Assembly (NCBI RefSeq): GCF_018603515.1
Contig: NZ_JACATN010000002.1
Coordinates: forward strand, 930,001 to 994,000
DNA: 64,000 bases
DNA from: Zobellia barbeyronii
GTDB taxonomy: Bacteria; Bacteroidota; Bacteroidia; Flavobacteriales; Flavobacteriaceae
Direction: 5' to 3'
In this document: one piece after another, positions 1,764 to 45,947 of the stretch
How the letters are laid out: every line of letters begins with the position of its first letter
How positions within the stretch are numbered: position 1 is the stretch's first letter
Position numbers and translations under genes: made by a program
Notes under the pieces: model-generated
Databases searched by the model: none
What the model was told of the DNA's origin: nothing
What the model saw: the letters and a program-made list of their open reading frames with translations, nothing else

Positions 1764-1766
1764 ATG

Positions 1767-27251: not shown

Positions 27252-30200
27252 ATGAAAATAAAAACCAATTTTAGTTTTTTAAAAGATAATTATGCCGGGC
27301 TTTATCAGTTAGCAATATTAGGCGAACGCAATTGTTTTTCTGACCCTAGTACTACGTTATCGAAGTTGAGAATTTTATCAGAAAAATTATCAAGTATTTT
27401 AATTGATTTTGAACAACTTGAAGAGCCTGTAGACAAAAGACAAATAAGTAGACTTACTATACTGCAAAACAATTCAGAAACACCTTCTGAAATTATATCT
27501 ATACTCCACACAATTAGAAAATCGGGTAATAAGGCATCTCACTCTGGCGAAGGTTCTCAACCAGAAGCCCGTTATATGCTTAGGCAAGCTTATTACTTAA
27601 CGAAATGGTTTATTGAAGTTTACGAAGATGAAGAAGTATTAGTTGATTATTATACACCAGAAGAATCTTGGTTTGCCTCCGATGATAATAGAACTGAAGA
27701 GCTAGAACAAGAATTAGAATCGCTTAAAGTTGAAGTAGAGAACTACAAACAGAAAATAAAAGAACAAACCCAAATATCTACTGAAGCTAAACAAGAACGT
27801 AAAGAACGTGCTTTTGAAAAAGCGAAAAAAACTGAGGAAAACGAAGCCGAAACTAGAGATAGAATAGATAAACAATTACGTGATGCTGGTTGGGAATGTG
27901 ATACCCAGACACTCAACTATAAGTCCAATAAAACCTTGCCTCAAAAGGGTAAGCAAATGGCAATCGCAGAATGGAAATGTGGAACTAAGTGGGCAGATTA
28001 TGCGCTATTCAATGGTTTAGAATTAATAGGTATTGTAGAAGCCAAAAAGCACATTAAAAATGTAATGAGCGATTTAGGCCAAGCTAAAACATACAGTAGC
28101 CTTGTTACCGGCGAAAATAACATATCATTTCCCAGTCATCAAAATAGCACAAACTACAAGGTTCCATTCCTCTTCGCCACAAATGGCAAACCGTATTTAG
28201 AGCAACATGAAACTGCTTCTGGAATTTGGTTTTGGGATGGTCGCAACCAAAAGAATATAGCAAGAGCACTATCTAATTGGTTTTCACCAAGAGATTTAGT
28301 AGAAAAATTAAACTACGATGAAAACGAGGGCGTAGAAAAGCTTCAAAAGACTGATTATGATTTATTGTCGGATTCAAGTGGTTTAAGCTTGCGAGAATAT
28401 CAGATAGATGCAATAAAAGCTGTAGAACATAAAATACTAACTAATACAGAAGATAGACGTGCTTTGCTAGCAATGGCTACCGGAACAGGAAAAACACGCA
28501 CCATGATAGGTATGTGTTATCGGTTAATTGCTTCTGGGAGGTTTAGGCGTATTTTGTTTTTAGTAGATAGGCGTATGTTGGGTAAGCAAGCGTCAGATGC
28601 TTTTAAAGAAGTTCATATTGAAGGGTTACAAACCTTTGCTCAAATATATGATCTACAAGATTTAGAAGATAAAGCTGCGCAGCTGGATACAAAAATACAT
28701 TTTGCAACGGTACAGGGTATGGTGCAACGTATTGCATACTCGGACGATTCACCAAGTGTTGGTGATTATGATTGTATCGTAGTAGATGAAGCACATAGGG
28801 GTTACACCTTAGATAGAGAAATGGACGAAGAAGAAGTTATACTTCGTGATCAAATCGATTTTCAGAGCAAATATCGTATGGTGTTAGATTATTTTGATGC
28901 CTATCGTATTGGTTTAACAGCTACACCTGCTATACATACCAAAGATATATTCGGTGACCCTGTTTATATGTATTCATATCGGCAAGCGGTTATAGAAGGT
29001 TATCTAATAGATTTTGAACCTCCCTATGTATTTCAAACAACCCTATCAAAAGACGGAATTGTTTGGGAGAAAGGTGACGAAGTTAAAATTTATGATCCTG
29101 AGGAAAATGAAATAAAAAATATTGGTGCTACTGAAGATGAGATTAAGGTTGAAATTACTGGCTTTAATCGTAAAGTAATTACTGAGAATTTTAATCGTGT
29201 CATTTTAAACGAGCTAATCTCTACTTATGGCATTCTTCCTGAAAAAAGAGCAAAAACTCTAATATTTGCAGCAACTAATGTACATGCTGATACCATCGTA
29301 AAATTGCTGTTTGAAGAGTATACAGAATTAGGTGAAGATGTAGACGCGGATGCTATTGTAAAAATTACAGGCGAGGTATATAACAGAGAAGATTTACTAC
29401 GTAAGTTTAAAAATGACCAATACCCAAGTATTGTAGTAACGGTAGATTTGTTAACTACAGGAATTGATGTGCCTAGTATATCTAATTTAGTATTCTTACG
29501 CCGGGTAAACTCTCGAATTCTTTACGATCAAATGGTTGGTAGAGCAACAAGACGCTGTGATGAAATTGGAAAAGAAGTTTTTAAAATATACGACTGTGTT
29601 GGTGTTACTGAAATAATGGCTAAAGAACAGGTTATGAAACCTGTTGCCCCATTAATAACTAAAACCTTTGGGCACTTAGTAGAAGAACTGGGTATTATTG
29701 AAGACAATTACTCCAAAGAGGCTAAAGTAGACCGTATTATAGCTAAGATACAGCGCAAAGTTTCGGGTTTTAATAATGAACAAAAAGAGCAGTTTTCATT
29801 ATTATCTGGTGAACCTACTGTAAGAGATTTTGCTAAAAAGCTAAAATCTATAGATATAGAGAATGTAAACCAGTCAATTCAAGACTTTGGTCATTTATGG
29901 GAGTTTTTAGACAGAGAAAAAGGTAAGGCTTTAAACTATGGCACACTGTACAGTAACCATGAAGACAAAGTAGAAGAAGTTACTCGTGCTTACGAGAAAA
30001 ACTTGAAACCTAAAGATTATTTAGAATCATTTGCAGAATACATTAATAACAATAGAAATGAAATCACGGCTTTAAACATAGTTTGTACGAAACCTAGTAG
30101 CTTAACTCGTAACGACTTAAAAGAATTACGTCTAATATTAGATACACAAGGCTTTAATAAAAACAACTTAAATACAGCCTATAAAGAAGTGACCAACACA

Positions 30201-30503
30201 GAAATAGTGGCTGATATCATTGCTCACATACGTACATCTGCACTAGGGGAAACATTAGTAGACCATCAAGAACGAATTACTAACGCAGTTGCTAAACTGA
30301 AAGCTTCTCATGATTGGAATCAAATTCAATTAAAGTGGCTTGATAAAATGGAAGCCCAGCTTCAAAAAGAATCAATTATCACCCTAGAAGATTTAAACAA
30401 ACCTCCTTTCAGCGTTGATGGTGGTCTTAAAAAATTGAATAAAGTCTTCAAAGATGAAACTGCTGAAATCATTAAAGAACTTAACGAATACCTGTACGCT
30501 TAA
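27252..30503 (+). CDS. hsdR: Type I restriction enzyme R subunit (HsdR) with DUF4145-like N-terminus
   Basis: This is a 1,083-residue protein. Residues 1-140 look like DUF4145, and 145-205 form a charged coiled coil. Residues 205-330 are the HsdR nuclease domain, with Asp about 249 and EAK at 263-265 of the PD-(D/E)XK site. A superfamily 2 helicase motor follows, with Walker A ATGTGKT about 409-415, DEAH about 512-515 and GLTATP about 554. The C-terminal region resembles EcoEI-type HsdR. The family cuts unmodified DNA after ATP-driven translocation, in a complex with HsdM and HsdS. It is the first gene of a nine-gene operon. In most systems hsdM and hsdS are nearer. Confidence 0.93.
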   Translation: MKIKTNFSFLKDNYAGLYQLAILGERNCFSDPSTTLSKLRILSEKLSSILIDFEQLEEPVDKRQISRLTILQNNSETPSEIISILHTIRKSGNKASHSGEGSQPEARYMLRQAYYLTKWFIEVYEDEEVLVDYYTPEESWFASDDNRTEELEQELESLKVEVENYKQKIKEQTQISTEAKQERKERAFEKAKKTEENEAETRDRIDKQLRDAGWECDTQTLNYKSNKTLPQKGKQMAIAEWKCGTKWADYALFNGLELIGIVEAKKHIKNVMSDLGQAKTYSSLVTGENNISFPSHQNSTNYKVPFLFATNGKPYLEQHETASGIWFWDGRNQKNIARALSNWFSPRDLVEKLNYDENEGVEKLQKTDYDLLSDSSGLSLREYQIDAIKAVEHKILTNTEDRRALLAMATGTGKTRTMIGMCYRLIASGRFRRILFLVDRRMLGKQASDAFKEVHIEGLQTFAQIYDLQDLEDKAAQLDTKIHFATVQGMVQRIAYSDDSPSVGDYDCIVVDEAHRGYTLDREMDEEEVILRDQIDFQSKYRMVLDYFDAYRIGLTATPAIHTKDIFGDPVYMYSYRQAVIEGYLIDFEPPYVFQTTLSKDGIVWEKGDEVKIYDPEENEIKNIGATEDEIKVEITGFNRKVITENFNRVILNELISTYGILPEKRAKTLIFAATNVHADTIVKLLFEEYTELGEDVDADAIVKITGEVYNREDLLRKFKNDQYPSIVVTVDLLTTGIDVPSISNLVFLRRVNSRILYDQMVGRATRRCDEIGKEVFKIYDCVGVTEIMAKEQVMKPVAPLITKTFGHLVEELGIIEDNYSKEAKVDRIIAKIQRKVSGFNNEQKEQFSLLSGEPTVRDFAKKLKSIDIENVNQSIQDFGHLWEFLDREKGKALNYGTLYSNHEDKVEEVTRAYEKNLKPKDYLESFAEYINNNRNEITALNIVCTKPSSLTRNDLKELRLILDTQGFNKNNLNTAYKEVTNTEIVADIIAHIRTSALGETLVDHQERITNAVAKLKASHDWNQIQLKWLDKMEAQLQKESIITLEDLNKPPFSVDGGLKKLNKVFKDETAEIIKELNEYLYA

Positions 30504-30528
30504 ATAGTTTAAGCAGATGTGCCATTAT

Positions 30529-31974
30529 ATGACTGATACCAAAAATCTAATTACAGATATTTTACCAATAAAGGACTTTCTATGCTTAGAAAATCTTAGC
30601 ATTCCAGAGTTTCAAAGACCATACAAATGGGAAACTAAGCATGTAAAACAATTGTTAGAAGATATTGTCTTACACAAAGATAAATCTGCTTACAGACTGG
30701 GTACTGCTGTTTTATTTGATAATAGAGATTCAAATGAACCGAGGACATGTTTGCAAGTAGTTGATGGGCAACAAAGATTGATTACGATGTCTCTTATTGC
30801 TCATGCATTGAAGTTGAATAAAGAAAAAGAACCGTATGTTTCTAAACTTTTAAATTATAAGGAGATAACTCTTTTAAATCAAACTTTCAATAGCGAAATA
30901 ACAAAGAATAATATCGTAATAAATTTTAATGAAATTAAAAGAGAGGTAGCAAATTTCTCTGAAGATGAAATTCGTTTTTTCCTTAATAAATGCGAATTAG
31001 TTTGTATTACTTTATTTGATGTTTCTGAAGCCTTTCAGTTTTTTGATTCTCAAAATGCTAGAGGAAAAGATTTAGATCCCCACGATCTATTAAAAGCTTT
31101 TCATCTAAGAGAAATGTTACAACTTTCAGAAAGCGAGAGAGAAAAATGTATAGAAGATTGGGAGAATAGAAATGATGATGAACTAGGAGAGCTTTTTAGT
31201 CAATACTTATTTAGAATTAGAAGATGGTCTAAGAGAAAAAATGGAAGGTATTTGAACAAATCGAATGCTTCCATTTTTAAGGGCATTTCATTAAGTAATA
31301 ACACTGATTTCCCTTTCACATATCCATTAAAAATCAATAATGTTTTTACAGATGAGTTCAATGACCATCTCCATAGAAAAATAGATAACAACTCAAAAAA
31401 CTACCCCTTTCAATTAGACCAGGTAATTATTAATGGAAAGCGATTTTTTGAAATGACAACCTTTTATCAGGAAAAGGTTGATTTGATCAAAAACATACAA
31501 AAAGGCATTTATATAAAAAATAGTGAAGGAGAATGGGTTTTTGATGATATTGATTATTTACAGAAATTAAAATTCCTAGGTGTACATTCAGTTAATGATA
31601 ACGTATTTCTAATATTCAAACAATTGGCGACTTATGGTGGAAAAAACCGGATTGGAGACCAATATATTAGAACACTTTTTGAATGTGCACTACTCTATTA
31701 TACAGATAAATTCGGAAATCAAGATTTAGAAAGAGTACTTGTAAAACTCTTTATATGGTCATACAGCTTACGCTTAGACCTGCAATCTGTTCAATTGGCT
31801 TCAGTAGATAATAGAGCATTAGAATGGAATAGTGTTTTTTCCATTATTAGAGAAGCAACAGAGCCAAAAGAAATTTATCAAATGTATTTGGAAAGAACCT
31901 CAGAAGTACGTTTTACAAACGCAGTAGATATAAAAGATTTATTTATAAAACTAGGGTATTACGATGGGGAATAA
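30529..31974 (+). CDS. DUF262 (GmrS-like) protein without HNH domain
   Basis: About 481 residues from the ATG at 30529; an ATG at 30517 would add four. It carries the DUF262 signatures IPEFQRPYKW near residue 25, VVDGQQRLIT near 80 and SQNARGKDLDPHDLLKAF near 180. DUF262 is a ParB/sulfiredoxin-fold NTPase domain of GmrSD-type modification-dependent restriction enzymes. The C-terminal DUF1524 HNH nuclease domain is not evident here. It lies between hsdR and a second DUF262 gene, overlapping the latter by 11 bases. A nucleotide-using regulator or effector role in the R-M operon is inferred. Confidence 0.85.
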   Translation: MTDTKNLITDILPIKDFLCLENLSIPEFQRPYKWETKHVKQLLEDIVLHKDKSAYRLGTAVLFDNRDSNEPRTCLQVVDGQQRLITMSLIAHALKLNKEKEPYVSKLLNYKEITLLNQTFNSEITKNNIVINFNEIKREVANFSEDEIRFFLNKCELVCITLFDVSEAFQFFDSQNARGKDLDPHDLLKAFHLREMLQLSESEREKCIEDWENRNDDELGELFSQYLFRIRRWSKRKNGRYLNKSNASIFKGISLSNNTDFPFTYPLKINNVFTDEFNDHLHRKIDNNSKNYPFQLDQVIINGKRFFEMTTFYQEKVDLIKNIQKGIYIKNSEGEWVFDDIDYLQKLKFLGVHSVNDNVFLIFKQLATYGGKNRIGDQYIRTLFECALLYYTDKFGNQDLERVLVKLFIWSYSLRLDLQSVQLASVDNRALEWNSVFSIIREATEPKEIYQMYLERTSEVRFTNAVDIKDLFIKLGYYDGE

Positions 31975-33913
31975 TTTAAAAGAACTTACAATCGGCACTA
32001 TTTTTCTTCCTAAGGTCCAAAGTGACATAGCCGACTACGTTATACCAAGGTACCAACGAAATTATGCGTGGAAACAACCTCAGGTTGTACAAATGATTCA
32101 AGATATTTATGATTTTGCAACAAGTGAAAACTCTAAAGACCAAAATTATTACATAGGTACACTAGTCGTATATGAAAGATCTAAAAATGGAAAATCTGTT
32201 TATGAAACAATAGACGGACAACAAAGATTAACAACATTGAACATCTTGTTTTCAGTACTAAAAAATGAATTCAAGGTTAGTTCTGAACACTTTAAAATAA
32301 ATTTGAGTTTTGACAGCAGACCATTATCCTCTTATACATTAGAGCATATTTTTGACCCACCATACACTGACATCCAAAAATCTGATAATAAACTAAATAC
32401 AAGAATTACAGATGCTTATGTAACTGTAAAAAATGAGCTTAATAAAATTCAACAATCAGGTGACTTAGATAAATTTATTAGCTATCTAAAAAATAAGGTA
32501 ATTTTATTACGTGCTCCTGTACCTTACGATACTAATCTGAATCATTATTTTGAAATAATGAATAATCGTGGCGAGCAATTAGAAAAACATGAAGTTTTAA
32601 AAGCTCAAATGCTTAAAGTTTTTCAGGATAATAAAAAGGCTACGAAAGTATTTTCTACTATTTGGGAAGCATGTGCAAATATGGAAAAATATGTACAATA
32701 TGGTTTTTCAACTAAAGACAGAACAAATCTTTTTGGTGAAGATTGGAACCAATTTAAATCTGAAACATTTGGCGAAATAATCAATTGCTTTAAAGAAGTT
32801 AATTCAGACAATGATGAAAGTGAATCTATTCTTTCTATTCTTGACAAGAATAAAATAACAGATAATAACTCTTCGCAAACGAATGAAGCTCCTGATCGTT
32901 TTAGCTCCATCATAAATTTTTCCAATTTCCTATTACATATTCTAAGAGTTTTAGTGAATACATCTAATAAATATACATCTGACGAATTTTTAAAAGATGT
33001 GCCTTTAGACGACAAAAGGTTATTGGACACTTTTAAAGTATTTCTAGATGACGAAAACAACAAGAAAGATTTTGTAGAAGAGTTTGCTCATTTGCTTTTG
33101 AAAGGAAAACATTACTTTGATAAATACATAATCAAAAGAAATTTAAGAGACGAGAAATGGAGTTTAAAATACTTAAAAGTTGAGTACTATAATAAAAATG
33201 CTTCTCATCAATATATTAATAGTCTAGATGTAAAAGGAAGTAATAAGCAGCTCTTAATGCTTTTATCCATGTTTCATTTTTCTACACCAACTTTAGTTTA
33301 TAAACATTGGTTAAATGCTGCATTAAATTATGTACTAAAACAAGATGAAGTGGATGAGCTAGATTATATTAATTATTTAGAAGATTTAAGCGATTCTTAT
33401 CTATATGATCGTTTTCTCTCTCATGAAGAGAGCAGCTACTTCCAAATTATATATAATAATGATGCTTACCCAAAAAATAGGAATACCGATTTAAATAAAT
33501 TGAAACTTCATCAAGGTACTGGAGTTGAAAACTTTATTTTCAACCGTTTAGATTATTTACTCTGGAAAAATGATTTAGAAAAAGATTCTAAAACTTTTTC
33601 TAATTTCTACTTTACTTTAAGAACATCTGTAGAACACTATTATCCACAAAACCCAAATCATACAGAAGACAAACTGGATGATTCATCAATTTTGAATAAT
33701 TTCGGAAACCTTTGTTTAATAAGTAATAGAAAAAACTCACAACTAAATAATGCCTTACCAGAAATTAAAAAAGGGTATTATAAAGATAATGATCGTGAAA
33801 TAGAAAGCTTAAAGCAAAGACATATGATGAATGATTATACTATTTGGAGAAAAGAACAGATACTTGATCATGGAGAAAAAATGAGAAAAATACTTTTAAC
33901 AACAAGAATATAA
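31964..33913 (+). CDS. DUF262-DUF1524 (GmrSD-like) protein
   Basis: This 649-residue protein has DUF262 motifs VIPRYQRNYAW near residue 27, TIDGQQRLTT near 83 and MNNRGEQLEKHEVLKA near 190. At the C-terminus, SVEHYYPQNP near 565 and NNFGNLCLISNRKNSQLNN near 590 match the His-Glu-His and Asn-rich signature of the DUF1524 HNH nuclease domain. Such single-chain GmrSD proteins cut glycosylated or otherwise modified phage DNA in a nucleotide-dependent way. Its stop is followed directly by the hsdM start, so it is built into the type I operon. Confidence 0.87.
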   Translation: MGNNLKELTIGTIFLPKVQSDIADYVIPRYQRNYAWKQPQVVQMIQDIYDFATSENSKDQNYYIGTLVVYERSKNGKSVYETIDGQQRLTTLNILFSVLKNEFKVSSEHFKINLSFDSRPLSSYTLEHIFDPPYTDIQKSDNKLNTRITDAYVTVKNELNKIQQSGDLDKFISYLKNKVILLRAPVPYDTNLNHYFEIMNNRGEQLEKHEVLKAQMLKVFQDNKKATKVFSTIWEACANMEKYVQYGFSTKDRTNLFGEDWNQFKSETFGEIINCFKEVNSDNDESESILSILDKNKITDNNSSQTNEAPDRFSSIINFSNFLLHILRVLVNTSNKYTSDEFLKDVPLDDKRLLDTFKVFLDDENNKKDFVEEFAHLLLKGKHYFDKYIIKRNLRDEKWSLKYLKVEYYNKNASHQYINSLDVKGSNKQLLMLLSMFHFSTPTLVYKHWLNAALNYVLKQDEVDELDYINYLEDLSDSYLYDRFLSHEESSYFQIIYNNDAYPKNRNTDLNKLKLHQGTGVENFIFNRLDYLLWKNDLEKDSKTFSNFYFTLRTSVEHYYPQNPNHTEDKLDDSSILNNFGNLCLISNRKNSQLNNALPEIKKGYYKDNDREIESLKQRHMMNDYTIWRKEQILDHGEKMRKILLTTRI

Positions 33914-35317
33914 ATGGCATTATCCACACAAGAAATAGTAAACAAGCTTTGGAATCTCTGTAACGTATTACGTGACGATGGTATCACCTATCACCAATAC
34001 TTAAACGAGTTAACTTTTATTCTGTTCCTTAAAATGGCAGAAGAAACTGACTATAATGATAAGCTACCGGAAGGTTACCGTTGGGAAGACTTAAAACAAA
34101 AAGAAGGAATAGAATTGGCAACATTTTATCGTCAACTTTTACTGCATTTAGGCACTGAAAGCACCGGTAAAATCCAAAAAATATACAATAACGCACAAAC
34201 CAGTATACAAGAACCTGCCAACCTGCGTAAAATTATAAAGCACATAGATGAGCTAGATTGGTTTGAAGCAAAAGATGAAGGCTTAGGCGAAATGTACGAA
34301 GGCTTACTAGAGAAAAATGCAAGTGAGAAAAAGTCTGGGGCTGGACAATATTTTACACCACGAGAATTAATTAATGTCATGGTGCGTTTAATGAAGCCAA
34401 AAGTTGGTGAACGCCTAAACGACCCTGCTTGTGGTACATATGGATTTATGATTGCTGCTCATCATTACATTTTAAAGCATAACGATATATACAACCTTAC
34501 TGAAGCTGAAAATAAACATCTGCAAACAGACCAATATAGTGGATGCGAGTTGGTAGGTGACACTCACCGATTAGCCATGATGAATGCTTTTCTACATGGT
34601 ATGGGCGGAAACATTGCTCTAGCGGATTCTTTAAGTAGTTATGGCGAAAGCGTAAAAAACATAGACTTAGTTCTGGCAAATCCACCTTTTGGGACTAAAA
34701 AAGGAGGAGACAGACCCACTAGAACAGATTTAGTTTACCCTACCAGTAACAAGCAATTAAATTTCTTACAGGGTATATACCGAAGCCTACATATACGTGG
34801 TGGTGCAAGAGCTGCTGTTGTATTGCCCGATAATGTATTGTTTGAAGATGGCGACGGACAACGAGTACGCCAAGACCTAATGGATAAATGCGACCTACAC
34901 ACCATTTTGCGTTTACCAACAGGTATTTTTTATGCCGCAGGTGTAAAAACAAATGTGTTGTTTTTTAAGCGTGGTAAAACAGATAAAGGGAATACCAAAG
35001 AAGTCTGGTTTTATGATATGCGTACCAACATGCCTAACTTTGGGAAACGCACACCATTTACCGAAAGCTATTTTACAGACTTTGAAAAAGCCTACGTAGC
35101 GAAAGACCGAACCAAAATTAAAGACGAGCGTTTCAACTGTTACTCGAGAGATTTTATTGCTAAGAAGAGTGACAATTTAGATTTAGGTTTAATTGCAGAC
35201 GATAGCATTACCAAAGCTAAAGACATAGGTGAACCTATAGAAATTGCCAAGGAAGCTCTAACCGAATTAACTAGCATTACCAAAGAGTTAAATGCCATAA
35301 TTAAAGCATTAAACTAA
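33914..35317 (+). CDS. hsdM: Type I DNA methyltransferase M subunit (HsdM)
   Basis: This is a 467-residue protein. The helical N-terminal HsdM_N domain (LWNLCNVLRDDGITYHQYLN) is followed by the N6-adenine methyltransferase core. SAM motif I is DPACGTYGF near residue 170, and the catalytic motif LVLANPPFGTKKGG lies near 252. Motif I has Cys and Tyr where DPAAGTGGF is common, which is still within the family range. It methylates adenine at the site chosen by HsdS, encoded directly after it with no gap. Confidence 0.93.
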   Translation: MALSTQEIVNKLWNLCNVLRDDGITYHQYLNELTFILFLKMAEETDYNDKLPEGYRWEDLKQKEGIELATFYRQLLLHLGTESTGKIQKIYNNAQTSIQEPANLRKIIKHIDELDWFEAKDEGLGEMYEGLLEKNASEKKSGAGQYFTPRELINVMVRLMKPKVGERLNDPACGTYGFMIAAHHYILKHNDIYNLTEAENKHLQTDQYSGCELVGDTHRLAMMNAFLHGMGGNIALADSLSSYGESVKNIDLVLANPPFGTKKGGDRPTRTDLVYPTSNKQLNFLQGIYRSLHIRGGARAAVVLPDNVLFEDGDGQRVRQDLMDKCDLHTILRLPTGIFYAAGVKTNVLFFKRGKTDKGNTKEVWFYDMRTNMPNFGKRTPFTESYFTDFEKAYVAKDRTKIKDERFNCYSRDFIAKKSDNLDLGLIADDSITKAKDIGEPIEIAKEALTELTSITKELNAIIKALN

Positions 35318-36727
35318 ATGGAAAAGACATTACCAAAAAATTGGGTTGAGACTAATGTTTCTGAATATTTGATTAATTATGATAATCAAAGAAAGCCTAT
35401 ATCTTCAAAGGAAAGAGAATCGAGAAAAGGTGATTTTCCATATTTTGGAGCTACCGGAAAAATTGATAATATAGACGGTTTTACTCATGATGGTGAATTC
35501 GTACTAATCGGTGAAGATGGAGCGAATTTATTAACTAGGGTTAAACCTTTGGCGTTTTTAGTTGAAGGAAAAATATGGGTAAATAATCATGCGCATGTAT
35601 TGAGTTATGGGAATACTATTCAGAATAAGTTATTTACTTTTTACTTCAATAGTCTAGATATTAGTGAGTTTGTTTCTGGTTCTGCACAACCAAAATTGAA
35701 TCAAAAAAACTTAGGGTTAATTCCTATAAAATTACCACCACTAGCAGAACAACATCGCATTGTTGCCAAGTTAGATGAGTTATTCGGGTATCTAGACACC
35801 CTTAAAATCCGTTTAAACAACATACCACAAATCCTTAAAAACTTTAGACAAGCGGTTTTAACCCAAGCGGTAACAGGTAAGCTTACTGAAGAGTGGCGTG
35901 TTGGGAAGGAGTTGAATACAAAAAAGGATTATGACCAAATACAAAAGTTAAAATCTGACTTGCTTAAAAAGGGTAAGTTAAAGAAGAACAAATTAGAGCC
36001 AATAAAGAATGAAGAATTAATTTACGATTTATGTCCTGAATTTTGGCATAAATGCATTTTTGATGACCTTTTTAGATTTATAGATTATCGAGGTAAAACA
36101 CCTCAAAAAACACCTAAAGGTTTAAGATTGATAACAGCTAAGAATATCAAGATGGGCTTTCTTTCTAATGAACCAATAGAATTTATGAGCGAAGAAGCTT
36201 ATGAAGATTGGATGACTAGGGGTTTTCCAATAAAGAGTGATATCTTTTTTGTAACCGAAGGATATACAATGGGTAATGTTGCATTAAATAATAGAGACGA
36301 TAAGTTTGCTTTAGCACAAAGAACTTTAACGTTACAGTCATTTTCAAATTTAAAAACTACATTCTTTTATTATTTAATGATGGAGTCTAGATTTCAACTT
36401 ATTGTAGATAACAATGCAACTGGGACGGCAGCAAAAGGTATAAAAGCAGCTAAGTTTAAAAATTTACCATTAATTTTTCCTTCATTAAAAGAGCAAACAG
36501 AAATCGTAAAACGAGTAGAACATTTATTTGCCAAAGCTGATGCTATAGAAGCCCAATACCAAAGCCTAAAAGTAAAAATAGACAGCTTACCACAAGCTAT
36601 TTTAGCCAAAGCCTTTAAAGGCGAGTTAGTAGAGCAGTTAGATACAGATGGTGATGCTAAGGTGTTGTTGGAGGAGATTAAGAAGTTGAAAGTAGAAATT
36701 GGTACTAAGAGGAAAACTAAAAAATGA
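35318..36727 (+). CDS. hsdS: Type I specificity subunit (HsdS)
   Basis: This 469-residue protein has two target-recognition domains, each followed by a conserved helical spacer. The spacers are LPPLAEQHRIVAKLDELFGY near residue 138 and FPSLKEQTEIVKRVEHLFAK near 389. The repeat structure gives a bipartite target that cannot be predicted here. Its stop overlaps the start of the 87-residue gene (ATGA). No inverted repeats or second partial hsdS indicating phase variation were seen nearby. Confidence 0.92.
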   Translation: MEKTLPKNWVETNVSEYLINYDNQRKPISSKERESRKGDFPYFGATGKIDNIDGFTHDGEFVLIGEDGANLLTRVKPLAFLVEGKIWVNNHAHVLSYGNTIQNKLFTFYFNSLDISEFVSGSAQPKLNQKNLGLIPIKLPPLAEQHRIVAKLDELFGYLDTLKIRLNNIPQILKNFRQAVLTQAVTGKLTEEWRVGKELNTKKDYDQIQKLKSDLLKKGKLKKNKLEPIKNEELIYDLCPEFWHKCIFDDLFRFIDYRGKTPQKTPKGLRLITAKNIKMGFLSNEPIEFMSEEAYEDWMTRGFPIKSDIFFVTEGYTMGNVALNNRDDKFALAQRTLTLQSFSNLKTTFFYYLMMESRFQLIVDNNATGTAAKGIKAAKFKNLPLIFPSLKEQTEIVKRVEHLFAKADAIEAQYQSLKVKIDSLPQAILAKAFKGELVEQLDTDGDAKVLLEEIKKLKVEIGTKRKTKK

Positions 36728-36987
36728 GTGTAATTATTAGAAATAGAACCATACGCCCAAGTACAAGAGATGTAAAGTCAAAGTATCGTATTCAAGTAAC
36801 TAATGCCATGCCAGAAGATGAAATAGTTGTTTTTATAGACCATGAATCTGCAGATTTTAGAGCCATTTATAAATGTACAGGTGCCTTTTTTCAAGAAAAA
36901 GATTCCATTTATTTTAAGGTAGAAGATGTAAATAATAAGCCAATAATTATTTGGAGTGGTGATAATGTGCCTGAATTGGTAAGGTAA
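36724..36987 (+). CDS. Small unknown protein inside the R-M operon
   Basis: This 87-residue protein is strand-rich (DEIVVFIDHESADFRAIY, KPIIIWSG) and has no known motif. It overlaps hsdS by 4 bases and lies 10 bases before the nuclease-like gene. It is therefore an integral operon member and may be an accessory or inhibitor subunit. I do not recognise the family. Confidence 0.65.
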   Translation: MSVIIRNRTIRPSTRDVKSKYRIQVTNAMPEDEIVVFIDHESADFRAIYKCTGAFFQEKDSIYFKVEDVNNKPIIIWSGDNVPELVR

Positions 36988-36997
36988 ATAATTAAAC

Positions 36998-37501
36998 ATG
37001 AATGATAAACGAAAGAAAATATGCTTAGCCTATTTAAAAGCCAGAAAAGAATTTTTAGATTTTGGTAATAGTGATGAAGTTCTACATGGTAATGATAATA
37101 TTGTAGGTAGAATAGGCGAGGCAATTGCACACTCATATTTAGAACAACAAGGTAGACAACCAAAAGTTCTAGTAAACCAAACAAATGCTGGTTATGATAT
37201 TATTTGTGGTACAGATGAATCAAAAATTTCAGTAAAAATGATAACTGCTGAGAACAAATATGGCAGTACTTCACAAATTAAGCATGAGTGGACAGAGCTT
37301 ATAGGTATAGAATTAGGTGAACACCAAAAAGTAATTAAGCTAGGGGTTATAACTAGAGAGAATTTTGAGAATGAGCAAAAGAAAAGAGGTCGTCGCTTAG
37401 AACCAAATTTCACAAGAGCAATGTTGAAAACTAATGGAATATTTACTACGGGTGGTAAAGTATATGAAGGCGAAGAATTAGAAGAGTTTAAATTATTATA
37501 A
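36998..37501 (+). CDS. PD-(D/E)XK-like nuclease-fold protein
   Basis: This 167-residue protein shows the order of elements of the restriction-endonuclease fold. GRIGEAIAHSYLEQQG comes near residue 37, a strand with NAGYDIICGT near 64, and ISVKMI near 76. The last takes the place of the ExK strand, with Ser instead of Glu. The Gly-Glu helix and Tyr-Asp strand are intact, so a metal site may still form. It lies between the 87-residue gene and the exonuclease-RecQ gene. A nuclease or DNA-end-binding role is inferred; a structural non-catalytic version is possible. Confidence 0.6.
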   Translation: MNDKRKKICLAYLKARKEFLDFGNSDEVLHGNDNIVGRIGEAIAHSYLEQQGRQPKVLVNQTNAGYDIICGTDESKISVKMITAENKYGSTSQIKHEWTELIGIELGEHQKVIKLGVITRENFENEQKKRGRRLEPNFTRAMLKTNGIFTTGGKVYEGEELEEFKLL

Positions 37502-37534
37502 TGTTTAGTTAAGTCAAAAAATAAAGTAGTAGAA

Positions 37535-40500
37535 ATGAACCTTCACGAATTAGAGAAAGCCTACAATATAGATTATATAACCATTTCTACTATACTTAAT
37601 AAACAAGGAATTAAAATAAGTTTAGAACATCTTAATGATATTCCTGAGCAATGGGTTTCTATAATTGAAGAATCTTTATCCCCTTCAGATACACAGAAAT
37701 CAGAAAAAAAACATCCCATATCAAAGCAGAAAAGACCAGTTCAAAGAGTTAGAAATAAATCTGTAGCGAATGACAAAAATTATTTCTATGCCTATGTTAA
37801 GTTTGTAGGTGATGATAAAAAGCATGCTTTCATTAAACGTATTGATGATATTAATGAAATAAATAATATTGATCTACGTAACAAAGATGAAAATGATTAT
37901 AAACTTCAAGAAGATTGCACTTTACTTGAAAGGGAGCAACTTATAGTTTGCGAAGAAAAATCAAAAAAATACAACCTAGCTAAAATTAAGTCGATTTACT
38001 TTGAAGGTACTATTCATGTAGAAAATAGAGTATCTAAATTTATTGATTGGTTATCATTTAAAAAGCCTTCAGTTATAAACGTTTCGGATCCTTTAGGTTT
38101 TAAAGAAGATGATAGTCTTGTGGTAGCTACACTGAATTACAGTAGAAGGTCAATTTATTGTAAAAAACATAACATTGCACCAAACGAGCCTAGCCTCGAA
38201 TCAAAAATTGAGAAGAAGGCACTTCAAATAGTTTCAGAAAATCAGATATCTCTTGACTCTTCTTATATGCTACAAGCATATAAGGCAATTGCTGATAATG
38301 ACTTATACAATGAACTTATAGTAAACCAATTTACCCACGAATTAGAAAATGAAGATTTTAGTACTAAAAGTAACTTAGAATCTTTTATAGAAAAATGGCA
38401 AGGTTTAGATAAGACACAGGTAACGTATGTTAATCTAAGACAAGAAAAATGGTTTAGTGAGTTGTTTGTTATGTGGTTGCATAACACTGTTCATATTAAT
38501 TTTTGGGAAGAACATTTAGTAGATGCTTGTATTCAATTTGAAATAGCCAGCAACGAATCTATAGGTGAAGATGATAAATTGTTATTTCAGCCACTACTAC
38601 AGAAACATCATTTAGATTGGCTTTCAAATGAATTAATTAGCTATCTAAAACAAGATATTATAATTGAAACTCGCTTAATTTATGAAGTTTTAATTAAGCT
38701 AATCAATCTTTCTAACATAACTAACAAGTCAGATTATGTTAAAAGCCTAGATAATGGTTTAAATGAAGATCTTCAATTTGAGTTTTGGGTTGCAGATAAA
38801 GCAAAAACATTTCCAAAAGAGAAAGCATTACTTAATTATAAAGAACAAGATAAGGTAATACAAGACAGAATAATTACAGAACTAGAAGACGATGAAATTT
38901 TAGCAGTTTTAGAAACAACTAAAGAACTATCAAATTCCAATAACCTAGATCGCTTTTTAAACCTTACCAAAAATCATCTGGTAGAAATTCTTAACCCTAT
39001 AAGTTTTGATATCGAGAGTGATACAGAATCAATATTTGAGCTCGCTTGGAATGTTAAAGATAAATGGACTTATCTATCGGATAAAACTCAGGTTGATGAG
39101 GATCTAGAATTGTTTGGCAACGAGGTAAATAATTTTGAAAACGTAATATTAGGTCATAACATTATTGATTTTGATTGTCCCCTTTTAGAAAAAAGAGGAT
39201 TAGAGTTTTACCAAGAAAAGATTTGGGATACTTTGTTGGTAGAAATTTTATTAAACCCGAATAGAAAAAGTCTAGCTCTACGTACTAAACATAATGCCAA
39301 AGATGATGCCTATTTAACTCTAGATTTTTTTATTAACCAGGTTCTTAGAATCTTAAAAACTCCAAAGGAAGAATTAAGTGAGCTTTGGGCTTATTTACCT
39401 GATGCCATTACAAATGCAATAGAGGCATTAAGGGAAAAAATTAATTTAAATTGGATATCAAAAGAAGAACTTCTAAAAAGAAGTAATATATATTTTAGAC
39501 CAGAACCCAAGTTAAATAGCTTGGTAATAGATTTAAAAGAAAAATTAACTAAATCTCACGCCAAAACAAATTTAATAATTGGCACCAATGATTTTAAAAG
39601 GGATGTGTTACATCTTAAAGATATTCGATACTCGGCAAAACACAATACTGATTTAGATTTTGCCATAATTGATGAGCAAAAAGTAAAAGAAAGTATAGGT
39701 CTTGATAAATGGTTGAAGTCGGTATTATTAGCATTTATTTACCATTGCAAGAAAACTAGTAAAATTACCTATTGGGGTAATTTACCACCAGTGGTTAAAA
39801 TTAAACTACAAGAACAAACTTTTGATATTTATAGCTTGTTTACAGAGCAGCCTTTAGATTTGTCTTTAGATGATTTAATCTTCCTATCAGTAGATGAATT
39901 ATATGAATACTCTTCAGAATTGAGACAAAATAAGAGTTTAGCAGTTTTTGTAGTGCAACCAGATTTAATCTCTGTAACCCAAAAACAGTTTCTCAAAAAT
40001 TTTGATTTAGACTTTTTTAAATCTGTTAATAATGATAATTATTTGTGGCTAAAATTTTCTGGCGGTCAAAGTTATGTTCCAATTTCTGAAAAACAATGTG
40101 AGAGCTTAAATATTACAATACCGAAACATCTTACTAATTTTTGGGTTGAAAAATACCTCTTTGGAAAATATCGAGTTTGGGGCTCTTATAATTGGGAAGC
40201 GCTTTTAGATTCAATTGATTATGACAGCAAAGAAATACTAAGTTTAGACAGTGGAAAATTTCAAAAAGACCAAACAAATTTTGCGCGCATAAATGTTACG
40301 AAGTCCAATAGTATGGGAGTTATTAGATTTAATCCCGAATCTGTTTACCGTTCTCGTTATTGGGTGTTTCAAAAAGAACTTATTCAACAGACTATAACAC
40401 CAGGTAAACTCACCGTTTTATTAATTCAACGATATGATGAAGTAGAGGTTCTAGAGACATATTTTAGAAGCTTAGGTTACTTTGTGCCCGATAAGGCGAG

Positions 40501-41650
40501 TTCTTTAGGAAGAAGATTAGAACTGTTGTACAGTTACCGTAAAACAAAGAAAATAGTTATTGCTACAATTCATGATATTAGTAAAGTAATAAAAGCTAAT
40601 TATTTAGGGGAATTAAATGTGGTAATTGACAGCTTTAGTCTAATCGAAAATTTTTATGTTTCAAAAGGGACTGATTTTTTCAAAACATTAACTACAGAAT
40701 CAAGCAATTTAAATTCCAGAAATTCGGAAGAAATATTAGGTGAAGAAATTATTGATAAAACGCCTTTAGTAAAAGATACTTTTCTTTTACTGAAATTACA
40801 TCTGCCACAAATTTCACAATATAGAAATCTACTTTTTCATGCAAACCCAAATCATAAATTGTGGATTTTAGATCCAAGGGTAAATGATTATCCAGATTTA
40901 AGCAAACTTTGGAATGCACGTAGTGTAAGTATGAATATCTGGCAAGAAAAAGATAATTACGAAGATGATGTGAAACTTGCGGATACACATATTACAGGAG
41001 TAAAGCCAATAACAGACCTACCTTTTGAACTTGAAGAAACAAAGCAAATTCTAAGTCAAGTGTTTTTGGGAAAAGGTGCTAAGTGGTATGATTATCAAGA
41101 ACCATATTTAGATGTAATTATTCCGGGAAAAACAGACCTTTTGGTAACTCTACCAACTGGCGGAGGTAAATCATTGCTTTTTCAGGCGCCAGCACTCTTC
41201 AAAAGCACATTTACCAATAGACTGACTATTGTTGTCACCCCTTTAAAAGCGCTTATGGAAGATCAAGTGGACGCTTTATGGAACAAAGGTTTCTATGGTA
41301 GTGTCGAATATTTAAACTCAGATAGAAGTACTGATACACAATTAATATATAGAGCGTTGGCAGGTGGTGAAATAGCCCTGTTATTTGTGACACCAGAACG
41401 CTTTAGAAGTCAGTCATTTAAAAATGCACTCAATGTACGACTGCAATCTGACGGCGGATTAGAATACATTGTTTTTGATGAAGCACATTGTGTATCGCAA
41501 TGGGGGCATGAATTTAGACCTGATTATTTTAACTGTGCCAAAGAGGTATTTAAGATTAAAACTGCCGCTAGTATTGATATTCCACTACTATTGTTTTCGG
41601 CAACTGTTTCTGAAAAAATATATAAGGATTTTAATCGCATATTTTCATGA
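37535..41650 (+). CDS. DEDDh exonuclease fused to RecQ helicase first motor lobe
   Basis: This is a 1,371-residue protein. An unrecognised N-terminal region of 480 residues comes first. A DnaQ-type 3'-5' exonuclease domain follows: FDIESD at 491-496, GHNIIDFD at 540-547, and HNAKDDA at 586-592, which fits the DEDDh pattern HxAxxDA. The middle region, 620-1180, is unassigned. RecQ RecA-like lobe 1 has Walker A LPTGGGKS near 1207 and FDEAHCVSQWGHEFRP near 1312, then LFSATVSEK. The reading frame stops just after that SAT motif. The second lobe is the start of the next gene, so the helicase is split between two chains or broken by a frameshift. Confidence 0.85.
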   Translation: MNLHELEKAYNIDYITISTILNKQGIKISLEHLNDIPEQWVSIIEESLSPSDTQKSEKKHPISKQKRPVQRVRNKSVANDKNYFYAYVKFVGDDKKHAFIKRIDDINEINNIDLRNKDENDYKLQEDCTLLEREQLIVCEEKSKKYNLAKIKSIYFEGTIHVENRVSKFIDWLSFKKPSVINVSDPLGFKEDDSLVVATLNYSRRSIYCKKHNIAPNEPSLESKIEKKALQIVSENQISLDSSYMLQAYKAIADNDLYNELIVNQFTHELENEDFSTKSNLESFIEKWQGLDKTQVTYVNLRQEKWFSELFVMWLHNTVHINFWEEHLVDACIQFEIASNESIGEDDKLLFQPLLQKHHLDWLSNELISYLKQDIIIETRLIYEVLIKLINLSNITNKSDYVKSLDNGLNEDLQFEFWVADKAKTFPKEKALLNYKEQDKVIQDRIITELEDDEILAVLETTKELSNSNNLDRFLNLTKNHLVEILNPISFDIESDTESIFELAWNVKDKWTYLSDKTQVDEDLELFGNEVNNFENVILGHNIIDFDCPLLEKRGLEFYQEKIWDTLLVEILLNPNRKSLALRTKHNAKDDAYLTLDFFINQVLRILKTPKEELSELWAYLPDAITNAIEALREKINLNWISKEELLKRSNIYFRPEPKLNSLVIDLKEKLTKSHAKTNLIIGTNDFKRDVLHLKDIRYSAKHNTDLDFAIIDEQKVKESIGLDKWLKSVLLAFIYHCKKTSKITYWGNLPPVVKIKLQEQTFDIYSLFTEQPLDLSLDDLIFLSVDELYEYSSELRQNKSLAVFVVQPDLISVTQKQFLKNFDLDFFKSVNNDNYLWLKFSGGQSYVPISEKQCESLNITIPKHLTNFWVEKYLFGKYRVWGSYNWEALLDSIDYDSKEILSLDSGKFQKDQTNFARINVTKSNSMGVIRFNPESVYRSRYWVFQKELIQQTITPGKLTVLLIQRYDEVEVLETYFRSLGYFVPDKASSLGRRLELLYSYRKTKKIVIATIHDISKVIKANYLGELNVVIDSFSLIENFYVSKGTDFFKTLTTESSNLNSRNSEEILGEEIIDKTPLVKDTFLLLKLHLPQISQYRNLLFHANPNHKLWILDPRVNDYPDLSKLWNARSVSMNIWQEKDNYEDDVKLADTHITGVKPITDLPFELEETKQILSQVFLGKGAKWYDYQEPYLDVIIPGKTDLLVTLPTGGGKSLLFQAPALFKSTFTNRLTIVVTPLKALMEDQVDALWNKGFYGSVEYLNSDRSTDTQLIYRALAGGEIALLFVTPERFRSQSFKNALNVRLQSDGGLEYIVFDEAHCVSQWGHEFRPDYFNCAKEVFKIKTAASIDIPLLLFSATVSEKIYKDFNRIFS

Positions 41651-44600
41651 TAGAGAGACTTAACGACAATGAGGTTTATAACCCAATTAGAAAACATATT
41701 CAACTGTCTTTTGATATTGTAGGGGATTCTGAGGAAATGGTTGAAGCAATAGCCAGTGACTTAAAAAACAAAGGTTTTGATGAAGAAAAAAGTAGGGTGC
41801 TGATATTTGTACAAACTCGAAAAGGAACTGAAGAAGCTACTACTAATTTAAAAAAAGCTTTAAGTGATATAGGGTTGAACTATGCTCATAAAGTTGAATA
41901 CTATCATGCAGGTTTAGATGGTATAGAAAGAGAAGAAACTTACGATAATTATAAAAATGGAAATACGGTTATACTAATAGCAACCAAAGCCTTTGGTATG
42001 GGTATGGATATAAAGAATATCCATTTTATTTATCATTTAGGTCCGTCTTCAACTTTTGAAGATTATCTGCAAGAAGTTGGTAGGGCTGGGAGGCATGAAG
42101 GAATGCTTCATGCAGCTGGTTATTCCAACGATAAACCTTTACAATCAAAATGCCTTGTAACTAGAGATGATTTTAAAAAACAAAAAGATAAGCTACACAA
42201 AAATCAAATTAGTTGGAATCAAATAAATCAGGTACGTGAAACCATTTTCAAATACCTTAAAAACTTTCGAAAACTAGAGCCTGATAGTGAAAATGCTTTT
42301 CCATTACCATTAGACCTTTTAGAAAATGACCCTGATTATGAAGATGTTTTTAATACCGATACTTTCTTTAGGGTAACATTATATTGGTTAGAAAAACTTG
42401 AAAGAATAAAATTAGGGGTTTTTACACCTACATATTTACCCATAGCACTTTTAGACGATGAGCCTGATTTTAGTTCAGTCAAGACAAAAGAAGTTCGTGA
42501 AGATATTGAAAGACTTTTAATTGTACTTAAATCATACAAATCAAAGTTTTATCCAACTGCCACTACAATGATGGTAGATATGGGCTATTTAAGGGAGCAT
42601 ACTAAAATAAAGGATACAACAAAATTATTTAAAATACTTTTCAAAGCCCAGAAAGTCAAGTTGATTTGCTTAGAGAGAGAAATAAAATTAACACCTACCA
42701 TTACACGAACAAATGAAATAAAAGAATATAATAATTATACATTTCTACCTACAATAGAAGCATTATTTGAATTATCAAAAGAACTGTTAGCTCTAACAAA
42801 ATCAAAGGATCAAGTTACTTTAGAAGGTGAAACTATTGATGAATTAATTAAGCAGGTAAGTGCAGAATGCTTTGCCCCACGAAATATATTCTGGGAAGCG
42901 CAAAAAAATAATAATGAAAACTTCACAACAGAAGAAATAGCTGAAAAGCAAAAAAATGATTTCGAAAACAAGAGAGCTAAATTTGCTTTTAAACTCCTAG
43001 GCTTTTTACCAAAAATAAAACATAAGTCCGTAATTGACATAGAAGATGGTTATAAAAAACCAAAGATTACCCAATTAATTTACAATGCGAATACATCAAA
43101 TAAAAAGATTTTAGCTGAATTAGATGCTTTTAAAGAAAACCTTCTTAAACTTATAAATTACGTATCTACAGAATACATAAAACACAATATTAATTCCTTT
43201 AATATTGTTGACCTTATATTAAAATTAGGTGTTGAAGACAAAGGAGAGGAATACTTCCAAAAACTAATATTTATCTCAAAGGGTTTAGCTTATCTAAAGG
43301 GAGGCGGTGACCTAGTGCCGATGGGGCTGGAAATGTTTGTAATTGACACTTCAGATTTAGAAGGTGATCAGCAAGGTTCTCCAGATTATAGTGTAAAGCA
43401 AGAGTTTATTGAAAGTTCTAAAATGAAAGAACTGAGATTAATATCTTTAGAATGCTTATCAGAAATACCCCAACATCATCATGATGGGTTTATAAAAAAG
43501 TACTTTCAATGTGGAGAATTAAGCGAATTAATAGGCTTACTTGAAGAGAATATAGGAGAAGATCACCCTAATTTAATTGCTTATCGAGAGGAGGCTCTTG
43601 AAGAGCGAAAAATGAAATTGAATGAAGAACAATTAGCGGTTTATGATTCGCCAATAAATACAAATTTACAAGTTATTGCTGGTCCTGGAAGTGGAAAAAC
43701 ACATACGTTAATACTTAGAATAGCAAGACTTATTCAAGAAGAAGGAGTAAATCCTGAAAATATTTTAATACTAGCTTATAATAGAGCAGTTGTTGTTGAA
43801 TTAAAAGAAAGACTTACTAGATTATTTAAAGAGCTTGGTTACTCCAAACTAATTAAAAGATTAAAGGTATTTACCTTTCATGGATTTGTTAAGTTTTGCG
43901 TTTCAGAACGTCTTGAAGAGGTCGATTTCAAGGATTGGACATCAACATTTTTACAAATAACTAAAGACACTCCTGGCTTAATAAGTCAGAAATTAGGTTC
44001 AATAAGATATGTGTTTGTTGATGAATTTCAAGATATAACCTCAGAACGCCTTGATTTACTGGAGAAAATAGCAAATCCTGATAACACAAAAGTTTGTGTC
44101 ATAGGAGATCCTAATCAAAGTATTTATGGGTATCAAAGAGCCGATGCAAGAGGAGAAATGGATCCAAAACCTTATTATGATAGGTTTAATGAAATCTACA
44201 AGCCAACTGTGTTAAACTTAAGTATTAATTACCGCTCTTACCCAGAGATTCTTATTCAAGCGGAAAAATTATTGTCCTTGAATAAATCAAAATTTCCAAT
44301 ACCAGAATTGGCAGCCAACTTAGATGATCAGGGTCATGAAGGCTACTGTGAAGTGATTAACTATCATGATAATAAGGTAGATTGGAAAGATAAATTAATG
44401 GAGATAATTAATTCTAAAGATGAGAATGGAGTAAAATATAAACAAATTGCAGTAATGTATCGTTCAAACGATCAGGTTTTTAGGGCTTATAATATTTTGC
44501 AAAATCTTTCAATCCCAGATGTTAGATTAAGAATTCAAGGAGCAAAGGGTAATTTATTCAAATGCCGTGAATTCTATTGCTTCATTTCAAAATTTTCTAA

Positions 44601-45513
44601 GAAAGATAATGAACTACTCCCAAAAAATTTCATTTTAGAAATTGAAACTTTTAAGAATCAAATCTTACAAGAATATCCAAATTGGGATTCTTATTTGTTA
44701 AATATCTTTCATTGTATCGTGTTAGAATTTGAAAAGGACAAAGAGGAAGATTCAAGATATAAAGATCTTATCGAGTTTATAAAAGAAATTTCCTCAAATG
44801 ATGATGGTCAATATGGTAAGATATATCAACAAAATATTAGTACTATAAAAAAGAACGTGCAAGACCAAGAAATTATAATTACTACAATGCACAAAGTAAA
44901 AGGTTTGGAGTTTGATGCTGTTATCATACCTCCCTCGTTTTCTAATTTACCTTTGGTTAATAGAGAATATATCCCAATTGAAGATTCCATTGAAGAAGAA
45001 AGACGACTTTATTATGTAGCATATACCCGAGCTAAGTACAAATTAGTTTCGATTAAATACGCCAGGGAATTAGCTATGGATAATAATCATGGATTTGAGT
45101 TTGAAGATAGAATAAGAAATAGTTTCGGAGTTTCTGTTGATGAGGGATTGGATAAATTCACCATGTATTGGAATGCAAGTACTTTTGGGAGTAATTCTTT
45201 TGGCTTTATAAGAGACCAAGTAAAAATTGGTGATGAGATAGTATTGGCTCCTACGCATAGAGCAGGGTATACATTCTGGCATGCTATTGTAAATAATAGA
45301 AATGTAGCCTCTTTATCAAGAAGTATGGTAGATAAAATTCAAAACATGCCAAAGGTAAATGGCTTTATAGTTTCTTCTATTTATGTCAGTACTTATGAAG
45401 ATACAAAGTACTCCGACGATAAAAATGGCACCAATTATGCTAGCAATTGGACACAAGAGGCTATCAATCGGGGTTATGTTTACCTAATTGATTTTTCCGG
45501 TTATGGGAATTGA
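41647..45513 (+). CDS. RecQ helicase second lobe fused to UvrD-like SF1 helicase
   Basis: This is a 1,288-residue protein. The first 150 residues are RecQ RecA-like lobe 2: RVLIFVQTRKGTEE near 57, then YYHAGLDGIEREE, ATKAFGMGMDIKNIHF and the arginine-finger segment EVGRAGRHEG. A region resembling RecQ C-terminal domains follows, to about 650. Then comes a superfamily 1 UvrD/PcrA motor: AGPGSGKT near 678, VDEFQD near 791, GDPNQSIYGYQ near 818, and YYVAYTRAK near 1121. The start ATG overlaps the previous stop (ATGA). The two genes together give a full RecQ motor plus a second helicase and an exonuclease. Confidence 0.87.
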   Translation: MIERLNDNEVYNPIRKHIQLSFDIVGDSEEMVEAIASDLKNKGFDEEKSRVLIFVQTRKGTEEATTNLKKALSDIGLNYAHKVEYYHAGLDGIEREETYDNYKNGNTVILIATKAFGMGMDIKNIHFIYHLGPSSTFEDYLQEVGRAGRHEGMLHAAGYSNDKPLQSKCLVTRDDFKKQKDKLHKNQISWNQINQVRETIFKYLKNFRKLEPDSENAFPLPLDLLENDPDYEDVFNTDTFFRVTLYWLEKLERIKLGVFTPTYLPIALLDDEPDFSSVKTKEVREDIERLLIVLKSYKSKFYPTATTMMVDMGYLREHTKIKDTTKLFKILFKAQKVKLICLEREIKLTPTITRTNEIKEYNNYTFLPTIEALFELSKELLALTKSKDQVTLEGETIDELIKQVSAECFAPRNIFWEAQKNNNENFTTEEIAEKQKNDFENKRAKFAFKLLGFLPKIKHKSVIDIEDGYKKPKITQLIYNANTSNKKILAELDAFKENLLKLINYVSTEYIKHNINSFNIVDLILKLGVEDKGEEYFQKLIFISKGLAYLKGGGDLVPMGLEMFVIDTSDLEGDQQGSPDYSVKQEFIESSKMKELRLISLECLSEIPQHHHDGFIKKYFQCGELSELIGLLEENIGEDHPNLIAYREEALEERKMKLNEEQLAVYDSPINTNLQVIAGPGSGKTHTLILRIARLIQEEGVNPENILILAYNRAVVVELKERLTRLFKELGYSKLIKRLKVFTFHGFVKFCVSERLEEVDFKDWTSTFLQITKDTPGLISQKLGSIRYVFVDEFQDITSERLDLLEKIANPDNTKVCVIGDPNQSIYGYQRADARGEMDPKPYYDRFNEIYKPTVLNLSINYRSYPEILIQAEKLLSLNKSKFPIPELAANLDDQGHEGYCEVINYHDNKVDWKDKLMEIINSKDENGVKYKQIAVMYRSNDQVFRAYNILQNLSIPDVRLRIQGAKGNLFKCREFYCFISKFSKKDNELLPKNFILEIETFKNQILQEYPNWDSYLLNIFHCIVLEFEKDKEEDSRYKDLIEFIKEISSNDDGQYGKIYQQNISTIKKNVQDQEIIITTMHKVKGLEFDAVIIPPSFSNLPLVNREYIPIEDSIEEERRLYYVAYTRAKYKLVSIKYARELAMDNNHGFEFEDRIRNSFGVSVDEGLDKFTMYWNASTFGSNSFGFIRDQVKIGDEIVLAPTHRAGYTFWHAIVNNRNVASLSRSMVDKIQNMPKVNGFIVSSIYVSTYEDTKYSDDKNGTNYASNWTQEAINRGYVYLIDFSGYGN

Positions 45514-45872: not shown

Positions 45873-45873
45873 G

Positions 45874-45947
45874 TCGGGATGACAGGATTTGAACCTGCGA
45901 CCCCACGCCCCCCAGGCGTGTACGCTACCGGACTGCGCTACATCCCG
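45874..45947 (-). tRNA. tRNA-Pro (anticodon GGG)
   Basis: On the minus strand, 74 bases fold as a cloverleaf. The acceptor is CGGGATG with CATCCCG, the D arm begins GCGC-AGTCCGGTA, and the anticodon stem CACGC/GCGTG carries the loop CTGGGGG (anticodon GGG). The T arm is GCAGG-TTCAAAT-CCTGT and the discriminator is A. CCA is not encoded. It looks intact and starts the less AT-rich chromosomal part. No second copy of its 3' end was found at the left side of the island. Confidence 0.93.

Follow-up and report, generated by a model that had tools for sequence, protein, structure and literature searches.

The 64,000-nucleotide (nt) stretch of Zobellia barbeyronii DNA analyzed here, which we refer to as the window, contains an operon of nine plus-strand open reading frames (ORFs) spanning 27252-45513, and its last two genes, gene A and gene B, divide a RecQ-type helicase motor between two proteins. 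Motifs I-III lie in gene A, where the DEAD domain forms the C terminus, and motifs IV-VI lie in gene B. The operon is real; its restriction–modification (R-M) and DUF262 blocks are known in kind, and the last two genes are its new part. Judged from gene content, it is probably a composite, island-borne operon in which a type I R-M system, a TgvAB-like DUF262 pair, and a two-protein DEDD/RecQ/UvrD helicase–nuclease are combined.

In gene A, the first RecA domain (RecA1) carries Walker A at 1209-1213, DEAH at 1315, and SAT at 1355, and the protein ends 14 residues past SAT, just beyond motif III. Gene B starts ahead of motif IV, and its RecA2 domain holds motif V at ~112-122 and motif VI at 142-149; a middle region of ~460 amino acids (aa) separates this domain from a UvrD helicase with GPGSGKT at 679 and DEFQD at 792. 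The RecQ model TIGR01389 (591 positions) is covered at 2-179 by gene A and at 223-352 by gene B. RecQ models match both halves below the whole-protein cut-offs, and no single polypeptide of the pair holds both RecA domains in the window. An earlier note on this DNA had listed a RecQ gene; there is no intact RecQ but a divided motor. While a generic RecQ match was obtained in 239 of 296 genomes, outside the RecQ part the window's own gene was the only one among the matches listed. We know of no other split between RecA1 and RecA2. Judged from titles and abstract openings, none of the papers listed dealt with a split RecQ motor or a DEDD–RecQ–UvrD defence protein; the term "split RecQ" was absent from the papers searched for it, one of which (PMC4824171) uses "split helicase".

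The exonuclease of gene A lies at ~488-600, with D492, E494, D547, H586, and D591 supplying the DxE, D, and H-x4-D residues of a DEDD enzyme. The earlier note had also named an exonuclease. This part of gene A has no Pfam match and the PADLOC DEDDh model matches it weakly (4.2e-5), but the assignment is upheld by alignment to a DnaQ-like profile: when the exonuclease profile of seven loci was compared with four DnaQ-like proteins that this genome also encodes, the hhalign probability was 94.0% (E 1.4e-7) and the catalytic residues lined up, whereas two other A and B regions used as controls gave 0.1% each. Gene A is absent from the PF00929 matches listed for its own genome, and a PDB search with the DEDD profile returned designed helical proteins only. 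A DinG-like origin of gene A 600-1178 was considered and is unsupported (hhalign 0.1% against one Hymenobacter DinG-like protein); Helicase_C_2 (PF13307) was found in none of 16 relatives, which therefore gave no better comparison. In PADLOC 2.0.0, NCBIfam, and Pfam, the RecQ half of gene A is matched, and the remainder gives the weak DEDDh match and a meaningless-looking sub-threshold Pfam match; if A and B build one motor, this would point to a model missing from defence catalogues.

The A/B pair was found in seven loci: the window, Oceanihabitans sediminis (by a genome-contig scan), Hymenobacter swuensis (from a plasmid collection), and the genomes G813, G879, G1302, and G1322 (by genome searches). 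The hinge of the split is identical in six of the seven, and in G1302 the pair is a single ORF of 2712 aa. The two ORFs overlap by 4 nt in the window and in G813, by 8 nt in O. sediminis, 17 nt in H. swuensis, 26 nt in G879, and 38 nt in G1322 (11 nt if an inner ATG is the start). Identity to the window ranges from 24 to 63% for gene A and from 32 to 69% for gene B. All seven loci retain the five DEDD residues, the RecQ residues G1211-K1212-S1213, DEAH, and SAT of gene A, and motifs V and VI, the UvrD Walker A, and DEFQD of gene B. RecQ-type motifs with the DEAHCVSQWGHEFRPDY stretch are likewise present in the seven, among which the RecQ Walker A glycine 1210 and the GHN histidine 541 vary. 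Conservation within A is highest in RecA1, with 82-91% between the window and O. sediminis in 100-residue segments from 1200 on. Between the window and G813, non-synonymous changes are far rarer than synonymous ones on both sides of the split (RecA1, pN 0.048 and pS 0.728; RecA2, pN 0.139 and pS 0.674), with dS near saturation. This recurrent split in related bacteria suggests that A and B join to build the motor. A plasmid search with the gene B middle returned two Hymenobacter records, and gene A gave the same result. The copy on the Hymenobacter cellulosilyticus plasmid (L034 15065-22692) is broken by stops into several ORFs and was left out of the counts; that of H. swuensis is intact. No match to gene A was found in viral contigs and none to the gene B middle in phages; gene B aligned to eight viral-contig loci, of which L066 alone covered RecQ and UvrD together.

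RecQ and UvrD are also combined in single-chain proteins of ~1600 aa, encoded by genomes from the family and the order of the window as well as by a viral contig. The four examined (from G018, G098, G188, and viral contig L066; loci L074, L076, L077, and L066) run from a DEDD-like N terminus through RecQ to UvrD. They thus share the domain order of A/B, whereas they are one polypeptide, ~1000 residues shorter, and dissimilar in the middle (hhalign 0.8%). Their N termini match the gene A exonuclease profile (hhalign 91.6%); therefore, the exonuclease–RecQ–UvrD arrangement exists as one chain, and A/B is a split, enlarged relative. G120 (1546 aa), in which RecQ similarity alone was seen, was dropped from the counts; it served as an outgroup in the first tree and was omitted from the second. 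The seven A/B loci form one clade, with support of 100/99 with and 100/100 without the longest outgroup, and the base is not resolved. The six split rows as one clade were not rejected (p-AU 0.408), a result that favors neither fusion nor fission as the first event.

RecBCD and AddAB pair helicase motors with a nuclease; the motors belong to superfamily 1 (SF1), each whole within one chain, and the nuclease is of the RecB type. The predicted A/B machine likewise unites helicase motors and a nuclease, but it differs from those unsplit SF1 motors and their RecB-type nuclease in its divided RecQ motor and DEDD nuclease. Scores of 59.1 bits for recB (cut-off 696) and 54.6 bits for addA (cut-off 861) give no RecB/AddA homology, and no RecB-type nuclease is present among the Pfam matches of the operon. 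In DISARM, the YprA-type helicase and its further domains also lie on separate genes; according to PMC12458937, however, that cut parts the helicase from the OB-CON-DUF1998 array, whereas A/B is cut between two RecA domains. The YprA-like helicase, BrxHII-like helicase, and PglX-like methylase of ARMADA and DISARM do not appear among the top Pfam and PADLOC matches for the operon. The words "RecQ" and "DEDD" do not occur in the main text of PMC12458937.

The nine genes of the operon (Table 1) follow one another at spacings of 13, -11, 0, 0, -4, 10, 33, and -4 nt; this finding was made without a shuffle control. Known families were matched by seven of the nine ORFs (Pfam, PADLOC). The tightly spaced one-strand arrangement described in the earlier note is thereby confirmed (-11 to +33 nt), and so is its type I R-M system, with the HsdR motor subunit, HsdM, and HsdS in the same operon. 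HSDR_N was not among the Pfam matches of HsdR; an EAKK motif, which may be the nuclease motif, is present at 263. The 167-aa ORF might, as a guess from its sequence, have a nuclease-like fold. Upstream of the operon, a 77-aa ORF on the minus strand (26649-26882) has no Pfam match and presumably resembles a ParD-type antitoxin.

Table 1 Features of the nine-gene operon and the adjoining attachment (att) site, in window coordinates
Feature	Position	Strand	Remarks
HsdR, type I restriction subunit, 1083 aa	27252..30503	+	DEAH motor; Pfam ResIII, EcoEI_R_C; PADLOC
DUF262-DUF7834 protein, 485 aa, TgvA-like	30517..31974	+	DGQQR motif; without GmrSD_C domain (Pfam)
DUF262-GmrSD_C (DUF1524) protein, 649 aa, TgvB-like nuclease	31964..33913	+	DGQQR, EHYYP; Pfam
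HsdM, N6 methyltransferase	33914..35317	+	NPPF motif; Pfam, PADLOC
HsdS, specificity subunit	35318..36727	+	Pfam Methylase_S, two matched stretches; PADLOC
87-aa ORF	36724..36987	+	no Pfam, PADLOC, or NCBIfam family over cut-off
167-aa ORF	36998..37501	+	DUF6998 match sub-threshold (E 0.015); no PDB match
Gene A, 1371 aa	37535..41650	+	N-terminal region, DEDD exonuclease, 600-1178, RecQ RecA1
ATGA overlap, gene A stop/gene B start	41647..41650	+	falls between two RecA domains
Gene B, 1288 aa	41647..45513	+	RecQ RecA2, middle, UvrD helicase, C-terminal tail; Pfam Helicase_C, then UvrD
Right-hand att site (24 bp, tRNA-Pro 3' terminus)	45873..45896	.	operon at right end of element

Of the two DUF262 proteins listed in the earlier note, the second alone has the DUF1524/GmrSD_C nuclease. 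TgvAB, as described in PMC11411939, is a type IV system made up of a DUF262 and a DUF262–DUF1524 protein and embedded in a type I operon on VPI-2 of Vibrio cholerae; both proteins are required, phages with hypermodified genomes are restricted in plaque assays, and the effect is independent of HsdR restriction activity. By the definition of TgvAB taken from that source, the window pair resembles the TgvAB/GmrSD type IV systems, having DUF262 and DGQQR in both proteins and DUF1524 in one, and likewise sits inside a type I operon. This likeness is one of domains, motifs, and gene setting. In contrast, the V. cholerae operon has five genes without A/B (PMC11411939), and the first protein of the window pair carries DUF7834. 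Since the TgvAB pair has been published inside a type I operon, the DUF262 block of the window is known in kind. The claim that the operon may cut both unmodified and hypermodified DNA fits the gene content of its two restriction blocks and the TgvAB precedent, and may hold to that extent.

The neighbors of A/B vary from locus to locus, while DNA methyltransferase genes lie near the pair in six of the seven. In the window, A/B stands with type I R-M. The order in G813 is two HsdM genes, HsdS, A, B, HsdR, and then the DUF262 pair, so that the extra genes expected beside hsd genes in another genome are present there in a single stretch. The DUF262 pair accompanies A/B in these two loci; the G813 relatives show 46% identity over 412 aa to the DUF262-DUF7834 protein (complete relative, 449 aa) and 45% to the DUF262-GmrSD_C protein. 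Two GIY-YIG-type genes lie between HsdS and gene A in G813 (L054 13423-16280), with counterparts in G879 seen by eye. In G879, A/B is likewise joined by a single DUF262 gene and a set of type I-like genes. This locus has two HsdM-like genes, identified through Pfam in one case and blastp in the other, the DUF262 gene, which lacks GmrSD_C, an HsdS-like gene judged by eye, A, B, and HsdR. In G1302, the neighbors are two N6_N4 methyltransferases similar to the type III-like one of Hymenobacter, together with genes for Res-like and DndB-like proteins and for an SNF2-like helicase. The Hymenobacter locus has a type III-like methyltransferase and a DrmD-like helicase on the opposite strand. In Oceanihabitans, DruE-like, DpdE/DrmD/BrxH-like, and DrmMI-like genes (PADLOC) adjoin A/B in the gene order that PMC12458937 reports for ARMADA type I, and we infer that this locus may be ARMADA-like; the window operon, in contrast, is without any of the three core genes. 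The operon is better read as stacked modules because A/B elsewhere accompanies ARMADA-like or type III-like sets and, at one locus, no methyltransferase was found near it; the earlier view of a single nine-gene system is right about the tight operon but too strong about the single system, as the partners of A/B vary.

The operon is cargo of a 69.6-kb integrative element. This element (69,603 bp; G000:C22:906270-975896, up to 45896 in the window) lies in tRNA-Pro, the end of which is directly repeated over 24 bp at the two borders. G1460 has the empty site, in which the flanks at C22:906293 and 975870 are adjacent. The gene adjoining the tRNA is kept in all nine genus genomes examined, and in the six stretches covered, of eight from other species, the sequence in common with the window ends at the 3' end of tRNA-Pro. 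A tyrosine integrase gene is located at the left end of the element and a relaxase gene at 6608-7456 of the window. The element also carries genes for an HlyD-type fusion protein and an outer membrane efflux protein (window 846-3044) and, at L096 6845-17784, sulfatase-like, TonB-type receptor, histidine kinase, beta-lactamase-family, and EptA-like phosphoethanolamine transferase genes (Pfam names).

In the mechanism that we propose for the composite operon, the type I enzyme would methylate self DNA and cut unmodified DNA, and the DUF262 pair would sense and cut modified DNA. The RecQ ATPase would form only on association of gene A (RecA1, motifs I-III) with gene B (RecA2, motifs IV-VI), and the resulting assembly of 2659 residues would couple RecQ (SF2) and UvrD (SF1) motors to a 3'-5' exonuclease. 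A/B may act in a RecBCD/AddAB-like manner outside that family, starting at restriction-generated ends to unwind and degrade foreign DNA; judged from the DEDD, RecQ, and UvrD domains, such degradation of the cut ends is plausible. We infer from sequence features that A and B would be a heterodimer with ATPase and nuclease activity that loads on R-M cuts and has an anti-phage effect. Several observations weigh against this reading. The methyltransferase of H. swuensis is ~9 kb from A/B and on the opposite strand, and none was found in G1322 by tblastn with those of the other loci over the whole 39-kb contig or by Pfam on four ORFs. The direct comparison of DnaQ with the single-chain N termini is weaker (hhalign 67.2%). 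In PDB profile searches, neither gene A 600-1178 (searched as 605-1178, nothing convincing) nor the gene B middle matches a solved structure; gene A 1-480 has no Pfam match in the window, and its Hymenobacter counterpart gave a sub-threshold cold-shock match (E 0.011). Moreover, the members are few: the gene A profile search found one of 395 genomes, and the gene B middle searches found three of 397, three of 395, one of 247, and one of 64, counts that include the center genome each time and come from overlapping draws.

A sequence error that shifts the frame, gene decay, or programmed frameshifting giving one chain is an exceedingly improbable origin of the split. The few-base overlaps, the one chain of G1302, and the broken H. 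cellulosilyticus copy would fit such an origin, but the hinge is identical in six genomes. Because B is offset from the frame of A by +2 in the window and G813 but by +1 in O. sediminis, H. swuensis, G879, and G1322, there is no shared slip direction. Frameshift, decay, and programmed slippage were rejected on these differing frames and on the scarcity of non-synonymous change in both halves. It is also very unlikely that A and B are separate enzymes, with A an exonuclease bearing a non-motor RecA-like domain and B a UvrD helicase bearing a vestigial RecA2. Although each protein holds another recognised domain, the exonuclease in A and the UvrD motor in B, the key RecQ motif residues of both halves are invariant in all seven loci, and RecA1 is the part of A that is best conserved.

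The remaining alternatives concern what the pair does. One is defence-island hitchhiking, in which A/B and the DUF262 genes would be independent cassettes that share an operon with the type I enzyme without cooperating with it; A + B could still be one motor. We regard this as somewhat unlikely. The operon is carried by a mobile element, the partners of A/B range from type I systems of different make-up through type III-like and ARMADA-like sets to none found, and TgvAB in V. cholerae does not need HsdR restriction activity for its effect (PMC11411939); however, the genes of the operon are tightly spaced, A/B stands between HsdS and HsdR in G813 and G879 (HsdS by eye in the latter), and methyltransferase genes accompany most loci. 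It is quite unlikely that A/B, instead of acting in defence, helps to repair or replicate the DNA of the host or of the mobile element. Such a role would fit the relaxase and integrase genes of the element, the G1322 pair with no restriction gene found beside it, and the single-chain relatives elsewhere in the family and order of the window, which lie in part on large contigs (G018, 1.14 Mb; G188, 0.74 Mb) and whose neighbors are not evidently defence genes. Yet R-M or defence-type genes are found near six of the seven A/B loci.

The helicase–nuclease of the composite operon may have a wider use. We tentatively consider it possible that A/B is a portable two-gene module with an obligate two-subunit RecQ motor, in which the ATPase site exists only at the interface and the helicase–exonuclease is inactive until assembly, a fail-safe that could allow its use with modification systems of the type I, type III-like, and ARMADA-like kinds. 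Should A + B prove to be a single motor, a helicase cut between its two RecA domains would have been kept in bacteria ranging from Oceanihabitans to Hymenobacter, as a natural split enzyme that assembly could switch, and end-processing machines would travel as modules between restriction systems.

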